Shown: piece after piece, positions 366 through 9,174 of the stretch | Position numbering within the stretch: the first letter of the stretch is position 1 | Layout: each line of letters opens with the position of its first letter | From: Bacteroidetes bacterium QH_7_62_13 | GTDB taxonomy: Bacteria; Bacteroidota; Rhodothermia; Rhodothermales; Salinibacteraceae | Direction of reading: 5' to 3' | DNA: 33,128 bases | NCBI GenBank assembly: GCA_003023365.1 | Contig: PXTG01000069.1 | Coordinates: 5,473 to 38,600, forward strand | The notes under the pieces: generated by a model | What the model saw: the letters and a program-made list of their open reading frames with translations, nothing else | Database searches by the model: none | What the model was told of the DNA's origin: nothing | Program-made: the position numbers and the translations under genes

Positions 366-1949
366 ATGAGTACCGACGCCGCCGCGTCCGCCGAAGCGAC
401 CCACCGCGAGCTGTACGATGCCCTGCAGCGCCGCCGCGAAGAGGCGGCCAAGGGAGGGGGGGAGGAGCGCATCGAGCGCCAGCATGAAAAGGACAAGCTC
501 ACCGCCCGCGAGCGTCTCAACATTCTCCTCGACGACGGGTCGTTCGAAGAATTGGGCACGTTCGTACGGCACCAGGAAACGAGCTTTGGTCTGGACGAGA
601 ACCGGCCGTACGGCGACGGGGTGGTCACCGGCTACGGCACGATCCACGGGCGCCTCGTCTACGTCTTCAGTCAGGACTTTACCGTGTACGGCGGCTCATT
701 GGGTCGGGCCCACGCCGACAAGATCGTGAACGTGATGGAGAAGGCCCTGGAAAACGGGGCGCCGCTGATCGGCCTCAACGACAGTGGGGGGGCGCGCATT
801 CAGGAAGGCGTCAAATCGCTCGGTGGGTACGCCGATATCTTTAAGCTCAACACCGATGCGTCCGGCGTCATTCCGCAGATTTCGGCCATCATGGGCCCGT
901 GCGCCGGGGGGGCCGTCTACAGTCCGGCCATTACCGACTTTACCTTCATGGTGGAGGACACGAGCTACATGTTCGTGACGGGGCCGCACGTGGTGAAGAC
1001 CGTCACGCAGGAGGACGTAACGGCGGGAGAGCTCGGCGGGGCACGCACCCACGCGACCAAGAGTGGCGTGAGCCACGTCACCTGCAAGAATGACGTGGAC
1101 TGCCTCAATCGCATCCGTAAACTTCTGAGCTACCTCCCGCAAAACTGCGAGGAGGACCCGCCCCGCACGCCCCGCGAGGAGGGGACGAGCGCGATGGACA
1201 GCGATGCGCTCGACACCCTGGTGCCGGAAGATCCGAACCAGCCCTACGACATGCGCGACGTGATCCGGCACATCGTGGACGCGGAGGACTTCTTCGAAAT
1301 CCAGCCCGACTTCGGCGAAAACCTGATCACCGGGTTCTCCCGGATCGGCGGCCGCCCCATCGGCATCGTGGCCAATCAGCCCGCTGTGCTGGCCGGTGTG
1401 CTCGACATCGACTCGTCGGTAAAAGGGGCGCGCTTCGTGCGCTTCTGCGACGCGTTCAACGTGCCCATCCTCGTTTTTGAGGACGTGCCCGGTTTCTTGC
1501 CCGGCACCGATCAAGAATGGAACGGCATCATCAAGGAGGGCGCGAAGCTGTTGTATGCGTTCTGCGAGGCCACGGTCCCCCGCATCACCGTCATCACGCG
1601 CAAGGCGTACGGCGGGGCCTACGACGTCATGAACTCCAAGCACATCGGCGGCGATCTCAACTTTGCGTGGCCCACCGCCGAGGTGGCCGTGATGGGGCCG
1701 AAGAGTGCCGTCGAGATCATCTACCGCGACGAGTTGAAAGAGGCCGACGATCCGGAGGCGGCCAAAGACGAGTTCGTCGACCAGTACCGGGAAAAGTTTG
1801 CCAACCCGTACGTGGCGGCCGAGTACGGCTATGTCGATGACGTGATCAGGCCCAGCGAAACGCGCGACCGACTCATCCGCGGCTTCGACATGCTCGAGAA
1901 TAAAGTCGTGAATAACCCGCCGAAGAAGCACGGAAACGTCCCGCTGTAG
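366..1949 (+). CDS. pccB: Acyl-CoA (propionyl-CoA type) carboxylase, carboxyltransferase beta subunit
   Basis: 527 aa; [80 protein letters not shown] and the C-terminal KHGNVPL are typical of the carboxyltransferase family. Confidence 0.93.
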
Positions 1950-1999
1950 AGGCCGCCGCGCTCGGATTGATCCCTTTGGAGAACGTCGCAGGGGGCTCC

Positions 2000-4900
2000 T
2001 TACTCCTCGGCCGTGGGGGAGAATGCCTCCCCGGCGTCTGCCGCTCCGGGGGAGGAAAGAATCTCGGCGAGATCTTCCTGCTGAACCGGCTTGCTGAGAA
2101 AGGCGTCCATGCCCGCCTCCCGGCAGCGCTCTCCCGGCAGCGCTCGCGGTCGTCTTCCATCACGGCGGCGGTGAGGGCCACGATGTAGGGCTGGTCGTCG
2201 GCGGATCGCTCCTCGCGAATTCGCCGTGTGGCCTCCAACCCATCCATCTCCGGCATCTGCACGTCCATCAGCACCACGTCGTACGTCCGGTTCCGGAGGG
2301 AGTCCAGTGCCTCGACGCCATTTTCGACCAGCTCGACCTCGTGCCCCATTTTTTCCAGGACGTGCATGGCCATCTTCTGATTGACGCCATTGTCCTCCGC
2401 GAGAAGAACCGTCCGGGACGGGTGGTCGGGGACGTTGGTCGTCGTCGATTCGCGGTCCGGTTTTGCCTCGACGGCTAGTACCTTCGAAACCGTTTCGTAG
2501 AGGCTCGACTGCTTCACCGGTTTGTGGAGCCACGCCGCGTACTCGCTGTCGAGCGACGCATCCTGTCGGTGAATCGAACTCAGCATTACGATGGGGAAGT
2601 CGGCGACGTCCCGGTCTCGAAGCCGATCAACGAGGGTTGGGCCGTCCATCTCGGGCATCTGAACGTCAAAGATTCCGATGTCGTACGGGCAGTCGTCGCC
2701 GTTGAGATGGTTGAGGACCTCCTCCCCGGAGGAGAAGATTGTAATCTCCATTCCGAACTGCTGCATGAGCTGCCGCAGAAGCTTTCGGTTGGTCTCGATG
2801 TCGTCGACGGCAAGCACGTGTTTGCCCTCCAGGGAGAGATCGTAATCCTCCAAACTGATCTGTTCCTGGGAACCCCCCGTCTCCGCCTCCGCCCGAATCG
2901 TGAAGTGGAACGTTGAGCCTACGCCCACTTCGCTCTCGACCCAGATCTCTCCCCCCATCGCCTCTACGAGCTGTTGACAGATGGAGAGGCCGAGACCGGT
3001 GCCGCCGTGCTTACGGGTCGTCGACGCATCCGCCTGCGTGAACGAATCGAAGAGGTCCGCCCGTTTTTCTTCCGGAATGCCGATCCCCGTATCCCGCACC
3101 CTGAAATGCAGTTCGTAGGTCCCATTCGTTTTCTCCGGGGCCGAGGCCACGTCAATGTGGATGGTCACCTCCCCTTCCTCGGTAAACTTGACGGCATTGG
3201 ACAGCAGGTTGAGGAGGATTTGTCGAAGCCGTGTCTCGTCGGACCGAATGGCCGTCGGCACGTCTTCGTCGACCAGGTAGGTCATCTCCACCCCTTTCTC
3301 CGACGCCCTCTTCGCAAGAGAGTCGAGGGTCTCTTCTACGCATCCCTGGATCCGGACGGGCCGTTCTTCGAGCTCGACCTTTCCGGCGTCGAGCTTCGAA
3401 AAGTCCAGAATGTCGTTGATGAGCGACAACAGCGTGTCTCCGCTATTCCGAATGGCCTCGACAAACTCCCGCTGTTCGGTGGACAGGTCGGTATCGTTGA
3501 GCAGGTCGGCGAACCCAATGACCCCGTTCATGGGCGTACGGATTTCGTGGCTCATGTTGGCCAGGAACTGGCTTTTGGTCTTCGCGGCCGCCAGGGCCTC
3601 TTCACGGGCCTCTTCGAGCTCCGCGTTTGTCTCTTGAAGCTTCTCGTTGGCGGACTGGAGTTCCTGGGTCCGTTTGTCGACTTTTTCCTCAAGCAGCTCC
3701 TGCCGCCGCTTCAACGCCCAGGTGCGCCAACGAATCACGCCGAGGATGGCCCCGAGAAGGCCCACCACGCATAGAACGTAGAACCACGTCGTCTGCCAGA
3801 ACGGAGGGGTGATGGTGAAGGTGAAGGTCGCCGGTTTTCTGCTCCACACCCCGTCACTGTTGGCTGCCCTTACCTTGAAGGTGTACGAGCCGGGCGGGAT
3901 GTTGGCGTAGGTTGCCTGTCGGCGGCTCGTTTTAGAAGTCCACCCGCTGTCGACGCCCTCAAGCTTGTACTGGTAGGTGACCTTCTCGGGGGCCGCAAAG
4001 CTCAGCCCTACGAAGCGGAAGGTGAGGTGGTCTTTCTCGTAGGGAAGTCGCAGGCCGGTTGGCAAATTCTCCCAGGCCGTTCGGCCGTCTGAGTACTTCT
4101 CCCAGTCCGGCGCCTCCGAAAAGAGACGGATATCCGTGATGTGGGGGCGAGGGGGAGCGTCGTTGAGACGGTCATCGGAGGTGTTGTAGCGAGTGAGTCC
4201 TCCGGCGGTGCCAAACCAGATGTGCTCGCCCGAGGCCTGGTACGCGGCGTGTGAACTTGCTTCAACCCCGAGGAAGCCGTCCTTCTTGTCGTAGGTTCGG
4301 ATGGAGACGGTTCCCGCTTCGCGGTACGCGTCTGCGTCCAGGCGATTCAATCCTTTTCCTGTGCCCACCCACAGGTAGCCGCTTTGATCGAGAAGGAGGA
4401 AGTACACGCTGTTGTCGATGAGTCCGTCCTCCCTTGAGATGCGCCGGAGAGAATCGGACTGAGGGGGCTTGATGTACACCCCGTTCCTGGTTCCGATCCA
4501 GGCGTAGCCCGCCGAGTCGACTTCAATGCCCGCCGTCCGCGGGCTTCCTGCAATCTGGGAGCTTGCGTCAAGAAAGGAGAAGGAGGTACCGTCGAATCGG
4601 TCCACCCCCTTCTGGTGGCCGATCCACAGCCGTCCTTGGGGGCCGGTCTCTACCGTTCGGATTGTATTTTCCGAAAGGCCGTCTTCTTTGGTGTATCGGG
4701 TGAACGTGTCGCCGTCGTAGCGAATGAGTCCGTCATATGTTGCGATCCAGTAGACCCCCGACCGATGCTCGATGATTTCAAAGACAGCCCCCATGGGATT
4801 ATCATTGATCCGTTGGTGGGCGGTGAGCGTCTGTCCATCCTGCACGAAGAGGCCCCCCTGCGAGCCAATGAGCAGGGAGTCTCCGCCCGCGTGGTGAAGG

Positions 4901-6126
4901 GCGTACGGGGTTCCGTCGAGCGTATCCTGGGTCCAGACCTTCGAAAACGAGGTGCCGTCGTAACGGTTGACGCCGTCCTGGGTAGCGACCCAGAGATCGT
5001 TGCCCGGGCCCTCGGTCATTCTCCAGACAACGCTGTGGGACAACCCGTCGTCCGTGGTGAAATGATCGAAAGGGTTCGGCGTGTATTTGTAGAGTCCGTC
5101 CAGGTTGGTCCCGATCCACAAATTGTCCTCGCGATCCAGGTGGAGAGCGCGGATCGACGTTTCTTTCAACTCGGAGGTGACGGGTTGCGCCTCGCCGTCT
5201 GCGTACTGGTAGAGTCCCCTATGGGTCGCGATCCACGCAGGCCCCCCAGGCGTACGCTGGACATCGTAGACTCTCAGGCTATCTAGCCCGGGAAGGCGTC
5301 TGTATTGGGTCCCGTCGTGCCGGTAGATGCTCTGTTCCGTCTCGATCCAGAGGGTGCCGTCGTCCTCGACAGAAAGGGCATAGACGGTCTCGGCGGGAAA
5401 CCCGTCCGTTGAGTCAATACGGGTGGGGGTTTCTCCGTCGTATCGGTAGAGGCCGTCCAGCGTCCCAATCCAGAGCGTATCGCCATGGGAGGCGAGGGCC
5501 GGGACGTCGGCGTTCGAGAGGGAGTCGGCGGCCAGCGGTTGGAAGTCAGTGCCGGTATAGGAGAATACCCCTTGGGAGGTGCCGAACCATACCCGCCCAC
5601 CCGGTCCCTCAGAGATCGCTTGAATGCCATTGGAGGCTCGCGTGCTATCCCCAGCGAAAGACTGGAGGGAACGCCCGTCGTAGGCGGCAAGTCCCCCCTT
5701 CGTCCCGAACCAGAGGGTCCCGGTACGGTCCTCGTGGAGGACGTCCACACTGTTGCTGGGAAGCCCGTCTTCCACGGTAAATTGCTTGAAGGTGTGCCCG
5801 TCAAATCGAGCCGCGCCGCCGCCAAAGAAGCCGAGCCAGAGATATCCCCGCTTGTCTTGCGTGATGTCGATCACCTGAGACTGCGGCAGTCCACCCTCAA
5901 ACGAGAAAGACTCAAGGTAGCGCTGCTGGGCGTGCGAGGAAGCAGGCGCGAACACAGGTGCCGCAGCGAGGAGGCTCGCCAGGAAAAGAAGGCGGGGAAA
6001 AAGGAAATGTCGGGCAGGTGTGGACAAGGTCCGATCCGCTCGGGGGCGGGATTGGTATGGGTCTATACGTCTCTCCGTTTGGGCAAACACTGTACCGAAG
6101 TCTTTTGGATGTCGTGAGGGATCCAT
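2000..6126 (-). CDS. Hybrid sensor histidine kinase/response regulator (two-component regulator propeller repeats, Y_Y_Y domain, HisKA, HATPase_c, two REC domains), frameshifted near the C-terminus
   Basis: Signal-peptide-like N-terminus; many repeats of the form [36 protein letters not shown] (HisKA); [19 protein letters not shown] (HATPase); two receivers with VQMPEMDG. The track ORF (1873..6126) reads into nonsense after EDDRERCRE. The intended frame resumes as [38 protein letters not shown] (stop at 2000). Confidence 0.9.
2118..2145. repeat. Exact 14-bp tandem duplication (tcccggcagcgctc x2) inside the last receiver domain
   Basis: 2118-2131 and 2132-2145 are identical. Removing one copy restores the canonical receiver C-terminus. 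Confidence 0.9.
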
Positions 6127-6367: not shown

Positions 6368-6430
6368 GGCGTGTCACGTTCAAGTCTTCACTGCGCAAGT
6401 GGATAGAGTATTGAGGATGCGCGAAGGAGC

Positions 6431-6950
6431 AGTAAACCCTCCGGCTTCAGCCGGGGGATTTGAACCGGTCGATTCTGGGCTCCTTCGCAGCGGGAATGCG
6501 AGTTCAAAACGAGCATTCTCTCCGAAACCGCTTCGGCCTAATTCGGTGTTGCAGAACAGCTCTTTAACGTGGTAATCAGTTGGCTCCCAATGTGTTGGGA
6601 ACGTGGTAAAACCACGCATTCATTTGCCCGAAGGGCCGGTAGGCAGGCGGCAATGTGGAAGCGTCTATCGTTTTCCGACCGCGCTCCGGTGAACCTGTCG
6701 GTTCGTCGGCAGGGAGAAGTGAAGGCTTCTCCAGACCGGAGCCTCGGCCCAGTGGCACGTGACGGCTGTCGGTGCCAAGAGCAGGAAGTAGGTCGGGCAA
6801 GAACCGACAGGTTCTACAGCTCGTCTACCCGGTGTCATGAGCATCAAATACAGTGCAACTCGCGGAGCAAGCGTAAGGCCCAAAGCGAAAGCTAGTGGCA
6901 GCGTGTGTAGAGCGCGAAGAATCTCCCGGCTTTATGCCGGGGCGGAAGTC
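6431..6950 (+). ncRNA. Putative transposon-associated structured RNA (omegaRNA/HEARO-like) or non-autonomous IS200/IS605-type element; no associated protein seen
   Basis: Hairpins: 6438-6457 (ccctccggc-ttca-gccggggg type), 6585-6600 (tcccaa-tgtg-ttggga), 6602-6616 (cgtggt-aaa-accacg), 6626-6636 (gccc-gaa-gggc), 6925-6941 (cccggc-tttat-gccggg). Long-range perfect 14-nt pairing 6691-6704/6801-6814 (gaacctgtcggttc/gaaccgacaggttc). 6683-6690/6735-6742 (gctccggt/accggagc) would form a pseudoknot or alternative fold with it. No convincing ORF. Confidence 0.5.
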
Positions 6951-6961
6951 ACCCACCTGCC

Positions 6962-6995
6962 CGTAGATCGGACAGTATCCGTCCGTAAATCTACG
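6962..6995. other. Near-perfect hairpin just downstream of the structured region
   Basis: cgtagat-cggac-agtatcc-gtccg-taa-atctacg. It could belong to the same RNA or be a terminator-like structure. Confidence 0.45.
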
Positions 6996-7551: not shown

Positions 7552-9174
7552 ATGACGAGGCGCACACTACTGATTACGGCTGCCCTTGCCGGACTTGTCC
7601 TTGCCGTCCTTTGGCAACAGTCGTCGCGCCGCCCAGCGGACCGCGAGACGTCTGGGCTGTCGGACGTGTTTGCGCTCGCGTCGGGCACGGACGTCCACGC
7701 CAATCCGCCGCCCTCGTCGGACTCTCTGTCTGAAGCGGAGATTCTACGTCACCTGGAACGGCTCCATCGCCTGCAGGCGGACCTCGCCCGGGCGCGAGCG
7801 GCCCGTGACGCCGACCGGGTGGAGCATCTGCTCGATACCGCCATCGGCACGCTCGGCCGCCTCCTGGAGCGGCCCCGGCTCGTCGAGCGCCCCCAATTTC
7901 GCCGGGCCTTCCATGCCCTGACGACCGCGTACCAGGTCCGCTACGGGGTGCCCGATACACTTCGCCTGCCGGAGGGGGAAATTTACAGTCTCCGGCGGGG
8001 GCTCTCCTCGGTGCTCAACCAGGAAGATCGTCCCTCAATCACGAAATCGCTCCCCGTCGATCTGCGGAACCAGAATCGCCCGGTGCCCCTCACGGTCAAT
8101 CGGCCGGTAAAGGAGACCATTTCCTTCCTGCTTGATCACAAGCAACAATACCTGTATCCGTGGCTCCGGCGGGCCTCTACCTACTTTCCGATGATCGAGC
8201 AGATTTTTGCCGAGGAGGGGGTGCCGGACGAGCTCAAGTATCTGGCCCTGGCCGAAAGTGGTCTCGATCCGCACGCACAGAGTCGGGCGCAGGCGGCGGG
8301 CATCTGGCAGTTCGTGGCCCGGACGGGACGCCAGTACGGGCTGACGGTCGATCCGTGGGTCGATGAGCGTCTCGACCCGGAAAAGTCGACCCGGGCGGCG
8401 GCTCGTCACCTGAAAGATCTCTATGATAAATTCGGGGACTGGCAGTTGGCGCTGGCCGGGTACAACTGCGATCCGGGCGTCGTGGAATACCACGCTCGGC
8501 AGTATCGAAAACGCACCGGCCGCGCGCCGTCGTTCTGGGACATTTACGACGATCTGCCGGAGGAGACGCGCAACTACGTGCCCCTCTTTACGGCCACGGC
8601 CATCATCACGTCGAATCCGACGACGTTCGATCTCAAGCGCGTACAGGCCGGCCCCCGCTACGCGTTCGATTACGTTCCGGTGGAGGTGGCCCTTCGATTA
8701 GATCAGCTCGCGCGTCTCGCAGAGGTTGAACCGAACCAGGTGCGTGCCCTCAACCCAGAACTTCGAAGCGATCGGTTGCCCCCATCCAACGCCCCGTACT
8801 ACGTGCGGCTGCCCTACGGAACCTACTCGACCTTCGCGTCCAACTACGCCGCTTTGCCCGAGGAAGAGCGACCGGAGACCCTTCAGCACGTTCTCCAATC
8901 GGGCGAGACGCCGGGCGAAGTGGCCCGGCGCTACCACGTCGACCGGACCGACCTTCTAACAGTCAATGAAACGAGCTATCCCGTCACTATGACGGCGGGG
9001 AAGGCCATTGCCACACCGGAAAAGACATACGAGGGCAACGCCCGCGTGGCTCAGAGCGCCGAGCACGAGCCCATCCGGGTTCAGTACGGCAGCCGAGCGG
9101 TCCGTTCCCTTGCCGCCAACCCACCCAGTGCCGGCCTGACGGCGTCCCTCACGTCGTCCGCGTCTGCCCCCTAG
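7552..9174 (+). CDS. mltD: MltD-like membrane-bound lytic murein transglycosylase (SLT domain plus LysM-like C-terminus)
   Basis: ATG start. IEQIFAEEGVPDELKYLALAESGLDPHAQSRAQAAGIWQFVARTGRQYGL...DERLDPEKSTRAAARHLKDLYDKFGDWQLALAGYNCDPGVV is the SLT signature; LQHVLQSGETPGEVARRYHVDRTDLLTVN is LysM-like. Confidence 0.9.
   Translation: MTRRTLLITAALAGLVLAVLWQQSSRRPADRETSGLSDVFALASGTDVHANPPPSSDSLSEAEILRHLERLHRLQADLARARAARDADRVEHLLDTAIGTLGRLLERPRLVERPQFRRAFHALTTAYQVRYGVPDTLRLPEGEIYSLRRGLSSVLNQEDRPSITKSLPVDLRNQNRPVPLTVNRPVKETISFLLDHKQQYLYPWLRRASTYFPMIEQIFAEEGVPDELKYLALAESGLDPHAQSRAQAAGIWQFVARTGRQYGLTVDPWVDERLDPEKSTRAAARHLKDLYDKFGDWQLALAGYNCDPGVVEYHARQYRKRTGRAPSFWDIYDDLPEETRNYVPLFTATAIITSNPTTFDLKRVQAGPRYAFDYVPVEVALRLDQLARLAEVEPNQVRALNPELRSDRLPPSNAPYYVRLPYGTYSTFASNYAALPEEERPETLQHVLQSGETPGEVARRYHVDRTDLLTVNETSYPVTMTAGKAIATPEKTYEGNARVAQSAEHEPIRVQYGSRAVRSLAANPPSAGLTASLTSSASAP

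Follow-up and report, generated by a model that had tools for sequence, protein, structure and literature searches.

Transposase-less relatives of IS605 and the element in the window

Palindrome-associated transposable elements (PATEs) of the IS605 type have been described in Haloquadratum (PMC3119063) and Halanaerobium (PMC7290912). They lack a transposase, carry near-terminal palindromes related to those of IS605 elements and cause no target duplication; a Halanaerobium PATE retains the last 58 nt of tnpB together with the right end (PMC7290912). The code of IS608 comprises the left cleavage site TTAC (CL) with guide AAAG (GL) and the right cleavage site TCAA (CR) with guide GAAT (GR) (PMC5934647). 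In ISDra2, the TnpB guide RNA (omegaRNA or reRNA) originates from the tnpB 3' end plus the right end and takes its guide from the flanking DNA, and its last scaffold bases pair with an upstream strand as a pseudoknot (PMC8612924, PMC10097598). The 5' region of this omegaRNA is dispensable for cleavage, and no band was obtained when it was expressed without TnpB (PMC10097598). Further structured RNAs tied to IS605-type elements, like the one reported here, are the Rfam families IS605-orfB-I (RF03065) and HEARO (RF02033).

The window, i.e., the whole analysed stretch of 33,128 nt, holds an element of this kind in the gap between two protein-coding genes:

1873-6126, minus strand: hybrid histidine kinase, 5' neighbour of the gap
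6407-6952, plus strand: whole protein-less IS608-like element of 546 nt, supported by a full-length sister, relatives and the empty site of a 488-nt relative
7552-9174, plus strand: SLT-domain lytic transglycosylase, 3' neighbour of the gap

Its limits were set by homology to the relative with the empty site. In our view, it is probably a protein-less IS608-type IS200/IS605 element in a decayed state, with an RNA that would serve TnpB in trans. The class is most likely that of the PATEs, as a parasite whose RNA would be used by a TnpB encoded elsewhere: the element has no transposase gene and IS605-related near-terminal palindromes, and a relative's empty site indicates insertion without target duplication. 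The initial annotation had already proposed a protein-less, non-autonomous element, which agrees with the absence of a transposase inside it and with the shortness of all 10 copies in which both ends were recognised (<750 nt). A protein-coding reading was rejected, as the internal ORFs contain no Pfam domain and tblastx to relatives scores similarly in all frames.

The element is not the orphan it had been taken for. A search of the host genome and its relatives, proposed along with that description, recovered a full-length sister (L002) on contig C33 of the same genome, 70% identical over its full length, a minimal end-fused copy (L003) on contig C114, many further copies in the family and an empty site for the 488-nt relative. 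Matches among the 100 related genomes searched were confined to members of the same family, and the plasmids, phages and viral contigs searched yielded none. Two copies in genome G002 are alike over the left ~200 nt, each within flanks of its own. The flanks of the window copy itself are not conserved; they were not found in relatives, and no empty site was seen there.

The tnpA and tnpB genes sought elsewhere in the host genome did not appear: neither a Y1 transposase nor a TnpB TNB domain was detected in this assembly (2.07 Mb, 62% complete), despite its two long and one minimal IS608-like elements. This absence speaks against the reading proposed above, although the assembly is incomplete. 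Both proteins are present in G002, G005, G007 and G012, and several genomes of the genus hold both intact copies and TnpB genes.

End structures, cleavage code and mobility

The ends of the window copy carry the following features:

6403-6406, plus strand: position of the left cleavage/target site, ATAG (family consensus TTAG), degenerate; from the left-end alignment, with the boundary from the relative's empty site
6407-6528, plus strand: left end common to tnpA/tnpB-bearing elements (88% to G010); from sequence matches
6421-6488, plus strand: left-end outer stem GCGAAGGAGC (6421-6430) / GCTCCTTCGC (6479-6488); from sequence and fold, with changed letters forming the same stem in L002
6434-6437, plus strand: left guide tetranucleotide AAAC, which reads TTAG-type targets; from target/guide covariation and the IS608 code (PMC5934647)
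6438-6457, plus strand: left subterminal hairpin CCTCCGGC-TTCA-GCCGGGGG; from the sequence
6919-6922, plus strand: right guide tetranucleotide GAAT; from the sequence, GR of IS608 being GAAT
6925-6941, plus strand: right subterminal hairpin CCCGGC-TTTAT-GCCGGG; from the sequence
6949-6952, plus strand: position of the right cleavage site, TCAC (family TCAA), degenerate; from the right-end alignment

Both subterminal hairpins lie where the initial annotation had placed them, and its assignment of the ends to the IS200/IS605 type is borne out by tnpA/tnpB-bearing elements of the genus as well as by the IS608 code. Over its left ~120 nt, the element shares 80-88% identity with the left ends of elements from G010, G002 and G007; for the right end, identity to tnpA/tnpB elements amounts to 87-89%. 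The elements of G007 and G002 encode TnpA (Y1, PF01797); TnpB, recognised by its OrfB_IS605 and Cas12f1-like_TNB domains, is present in G007 and G010. These alignments show both ends of the family to be common to tnpA/tnpB-bearing elements of the genus, whose TnpA would move the protein-less element in trans.

For the 488-nt relative (G012, C79), a precise empty site was found in G001 (C57), with flanks 97-99% identical. Without the element, the site reads ...GGTTTAC followed directly by GAGGCATC...; with it, TTAC is followed by AGTATTGAG... on the left and ...GTGTCAA by GAGG on the right, with no target duplication. Target TTAC pairs with guide AAAG in 10 left-end records and TTAG with AAAC in six, counts that do not represent independent events because some of these records overlap, and no true cross-combination of target and guide was seen across the left-end records compared. 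The right end of the family carries GAAT...TCAA. The family code is that of IS608, AAAG/TTAC and GAAT/TCAA, plus a compensatory change at the fourth base that gives the covarying AAAC/TTAG version; the window copy departs from it at both cleavage sites. Unlike IS608, the element has neither tnpA nor tnpB. These comparisons show that the family is mobile by the IS608 route, with insertion 3' of TTAC or TTAG and no target duplication.

Since the element lies upstream of the transglycosylase gene, it might instead be a 5' leader or riboswitch of that gene, or an IStron-like self-splicing intron, the latter having been considered because related elements hold LAGLIDADG genes. The copies occur in unrelated contexts, and one precise empty site lies between genes, which already contradicts a leader; a match to group I introns was not obtained either, and we regard this explanation as highly improbable.

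Minimal copies of ~60 nt, consisting of the left hairpin joined straight to the right-end tail, were observed as well (L003 at 1494-1557, L090-L095, L097, L098, L101 and L107), and are especially numerous in G005.

The omegaRNA-type segment and its pseudoknot

Two features describe the right part of the element and the DNA beyond it:

6783-6951, plus strand: omegaRNA-type segment, homologue of the tnpB 3' end plus right end; from alignment with tnpB loci and the pseudoknot test
6953-6972, plus strand: predicted TnpB guide position in the flanking DNA, if the RNA is functional; from the TnpB reRNA layout (PMC8612924)

In alignments, the right ~170 nt correspond to the tnpB 3' end plus right end of tnpA/tnpB-bearing elements. 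This is the origin of the ISDra2 omegaRNA/reRNA, and the putative guide position would likewise be 3' of the element. The suggested link to the guide RNA of an RNA-guided nuclease is thereby supported. Two placements of the guide had been offered, of which the TnpB-type one, 3' of the element (6953 onward), agrees with this layout, and the IscB-type one, 5' of the left end, does not.

The latter placement would apply if the locus were a HEARO/IscB omegaRNA element that lacks its protein. Protein-less HEARO elements exist, and their end-hairpin layout is similar, but no copy matches RF02033, the right part shares homology with tnpB and a conserved pseudoknot sits at the 3' end. The HEARO/IscB assignment is already contradicted by these three observations, and we consider it extremely improbable.

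In the family, the scaffold ends in seven bases, GAAGTCA, that pair with TGGCTTC of the tnpB-derived part, much as the scaffold 3' end of the ISDra2 omegaRNA pairs with an upstream strand near the guide position. Three compensatory pairs distinguish a set of protein-less elements, in which TGGCTTC/GAAGTCA has become TGGCACT/AGTGTCA; the pseudoknot letters of the type-2 elements tested (AGTGTCA) differ from those of the parsed TnpB elements (GAAGTCA), a point against the preferred reading. Most protein-less copies parsed keep all pairs (7/7), and L124 keeps 6/7; these counts leave out L018, for which no parse was obtained, and the low scores of L138 and L070 arise from a GTCA in the flank taken instead of the right end (the sequence of L138 reads ...GGAGTGTCAA). 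A second helix of the GCAGGC/GCCTGC type covaries as well. The alignments show that intact members retain a predicted pseudoknot of the omegaRNA type adjoining the guide position. As TnpA can recognise DNA ends without an internal strand pairing to the end, this pseudoknot points to selection on the RNA.

The window copy itself looks degenerate. It has ATAG at the left site and TCAC at the right site, and it lacks ~35 nt, among them the pseudoknot strand TGGCTTC, so that the pseudoknot, which in intact relatives has 7/7 pairs and compensatory changes, is lost. Its sister L002, from the same host, shows TTAG and TCAA together with 7/7 pseudoknot pairs. Given the changes at both cleavage sites and in the pseudoknot strand, the window copy presumably no longer works.

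In an intact member, a transcript through the interior and the right end into the flank would be a guide RNA for TnpB in trans. TnpB would bind this RNA and cleave next to the TAM under its guidance; by cutting the empty site, it would keep the element in place as it keeps its own.

Module X and the surrounding folds

Between the left end and the omegaRNA-type segment lies an RNA domain that we denote module X:

about 6630-6752, plus strand: module X, three-way-junction RNA; covariance model R1 (80.8 bits), covariation, no Rfam match
6633-6750, plus strand: helix P1, 6633-6636/6747-6750 and 6641-6644/6741-6744; covariation test, helices 1 and 2
6647-6682, plus strand: helix P2, 6647-6650/6679-6682 (near-invariant GCGG/CCGC) and 6657-6663/6669-6675 (covarying); helices 3 and 4
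6713-6732, plus strand: helix P3, 6713-6719/6726-6732; covariation test, helix 5

According to an alignment of 14 copies, P1 closes P2 and P3, and a covarying hairpin tops the GCGG/CCGC of P2; RNAalifold recovers this fold de novo. Standard pairs occupy 87.2% of the 366 pair cells in these 14 copies, vs 74.2% in shuffled and 40-50% in slid alignments, and both sides have changed in 57 cells (19.9 expected), a number that no shuffle reached. When 26 copies were fitted to the covariance model, 97 double-change cells were counted vs 31.7 in shuffles; the number of pairs with a double change in these 26 copies was not beyond shuffles (80/500). The covariation check called for in the initial annotation was thus positive for the helices of module X. 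Pairwise identity among the copies ranges from 36 to 96%, and the core is more conserved than its surroundings.

Model R1 located the 26 copies in 9 of 27 genomes of the family, a family of salt-loving bacteria; with stricter filters, it detected none beyond the family among 396 sampled genomes of the phylum. In 31 records including tnpA/tnpB loci, module X was found only in the window copy (next best, 11.8 bits, E 0.71). Wherever a copy has both ends, the omegaRNA segment accompanies module X. Neither the element nor any relative tested matched an Rfam family, at gathering thresholds or at E up to 1-10, although Rfam 15 includes HEARO (RF02033) and IS605-orfB-I (RF03065); in particular, no copy tested matched the latter, which sets the element apart from both families. 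Nearest to a match came a chance Mnt IRES (E 5.6) and, in the flanking DNA, a twister below threshold. The latter, a type-P5 match beside L002 (914-950; 25.6 bits, E 0.2), is probably due to chance, too. The initial annotation had named the lack of an Rfam match as refuting its proposal when combined with a lack of other copies and of covariation; the first applies, yet both copies and covariation were found.

These comparisons show that members carry a conserved RNA domain, predicted to form a three-way junction, followed by the stretch that serves autonomous elements as template for the TnpB omegaRNA. The new part is this domain tied to an omegaRNA scaffold, as the PATE class and ends-only fused forms are already known. 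We found no description of such a domain in elements of this kind in the open-access literature, which is weak evidence of absence. PATEs are usually seen as bare ends remaining from IS605 decay. Here, in contrast, divergent copies across a bacterial family have in common an interior RNA domain that is conserved and covarying, not mere leftover ends, and the fusion of this domain to the omegaRNA scaffold together with its compensatory evolution suggests selection on the RNA itself.

If the locus were a PATE in which only the DNA end hairpins count, for TnpA in trans, its internal structure would be a passenger and no guide RNA would be made. This would fit the known PATEs and ends-only elements (PMC3119063, PMC7290912) and the copies reduced here to a single ~60-nt hairpin; however, covariation is seen both in module X and in the omegaRNA pseudoknot among copies of 36-96% identity, and neither structure is required by TnpA for end recognition, which renders this explanation unlikely. 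Module X could also be an independent functional RNA, such as a ribozyme, a regulatory RNA or a processing signal, carried as cargo unrelated to guide function. Its compact, autonomous fold, its well-conserved core and the absence of a counterpart in tnpB-bearing loci would suit such a role. Yet it is confined to these elements, with the omegaRNA segment always present where both ends are, and no Rfam family matches it; we rate cargo as quite unlikely.

Under the preferred reading, an element whose RNA serves TnpB in trans, module X would probably replace the tnpB mRNA as a stabilising or processing 5' domain. In comparison with the ISDra2 omegaRNA, tnpB in cis is lacking, ~120 nt of extra three-way-junction RNA take the place of coding sequence, and the guide role is an inferred one. 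The absence of a band for the ISDra2 omegaRNA without TnpB makes it plausible, as a guess, that a structured 5' domain could serve stability; since that omegaRNA cleaves without its 5' region, module X would by this precedent be dispensable for cleavage. Possible, though doubtful, is the more specific proposal that these elements are mobile guide RNAs, in which module X replaces tnpB, the omegaRNA is loaded by TnpB made elsewhere and the parasite keeps its place by RNA-guided cleavage in trans. Should TnpB use the RNA in trans, non-autonomous elements would join RNA-guided transposon maintenance, and module X would represent a natural route to guide RNA without nuclease mRNA.

Two further entries concern other folds of the window copy:

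6585-6616, plus strand: two adjacent stem-loops (6585-6600, 6602-6616), kept in the closest subfamily only (L002, L005, L009, L010, L019)
6691-6814, no strand assigned: two inverted copies (6691-6704, 6801-6814) of the palindromic repeat GAACCGACAGGTTC; from a repeat search

All three consecutive stem-loops of the initial annotation are present at their positions, and the third (6626-6636) is in competition with helix P1 (6633-6636/6747-6750), which is conserved. The 14-nt complement 6691-6704/6801-6814, described there as a long-range helix crossed by an 8-nt helix and implying a pseudoknot or switch, exists as such; as a conserved helix it was rejected, because its two strands are inverted occurrences of one small, mobile palindrome found at varying positions, and no conserved pseudoknot follows from it. 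The crossing helix is specific to the window copy. On its own, GAACCGACAGGTTC can fold into a local hairpin; its pairing across the two copies is not conserved. The fold of the 548-nt strand is more stable than shuffles (z -4.5), as are those of the reverse strand (z -4.9) and the sister copy (z -6.9); since these fold well too, fold energy alone is weak evidence, and proof of a real feature comes from comparison, i.e., from a repeated element with covarying helices.

The 14-bp palindrome GAACCGACAGGTTC also occurs at 6462-6475 of the window and, in both orientations, within or near IS200/IS605 ends of the genus. Exact matches occur in 54 of 190 loci retrieved, some of which overlap; the palindrome possibly constitutes a very small mobile or amplified repeat. 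Tandem repeats were seen inside module X in two loci: a 15-nt unit, AAAGGCATTTGCTCC, in L010 (~1830-1870, minus strand) and TATGCTTCCGACGCG within the P3 region of L110. Additionally, locus L012 (583-1362; G012:C90:8394-9170) has an ORF of 259 aa for a LAGLIDADG-type endonuclease (PF14528) at the expected tnpB position, flanked by an IS200-type tnpA on one side and an intact tnpB 3' end/omegaRNA right end on the other, which looks like a nuclease swap; a homologue with 36% identity adjoins tnpB in G012:C119:3150-3785.
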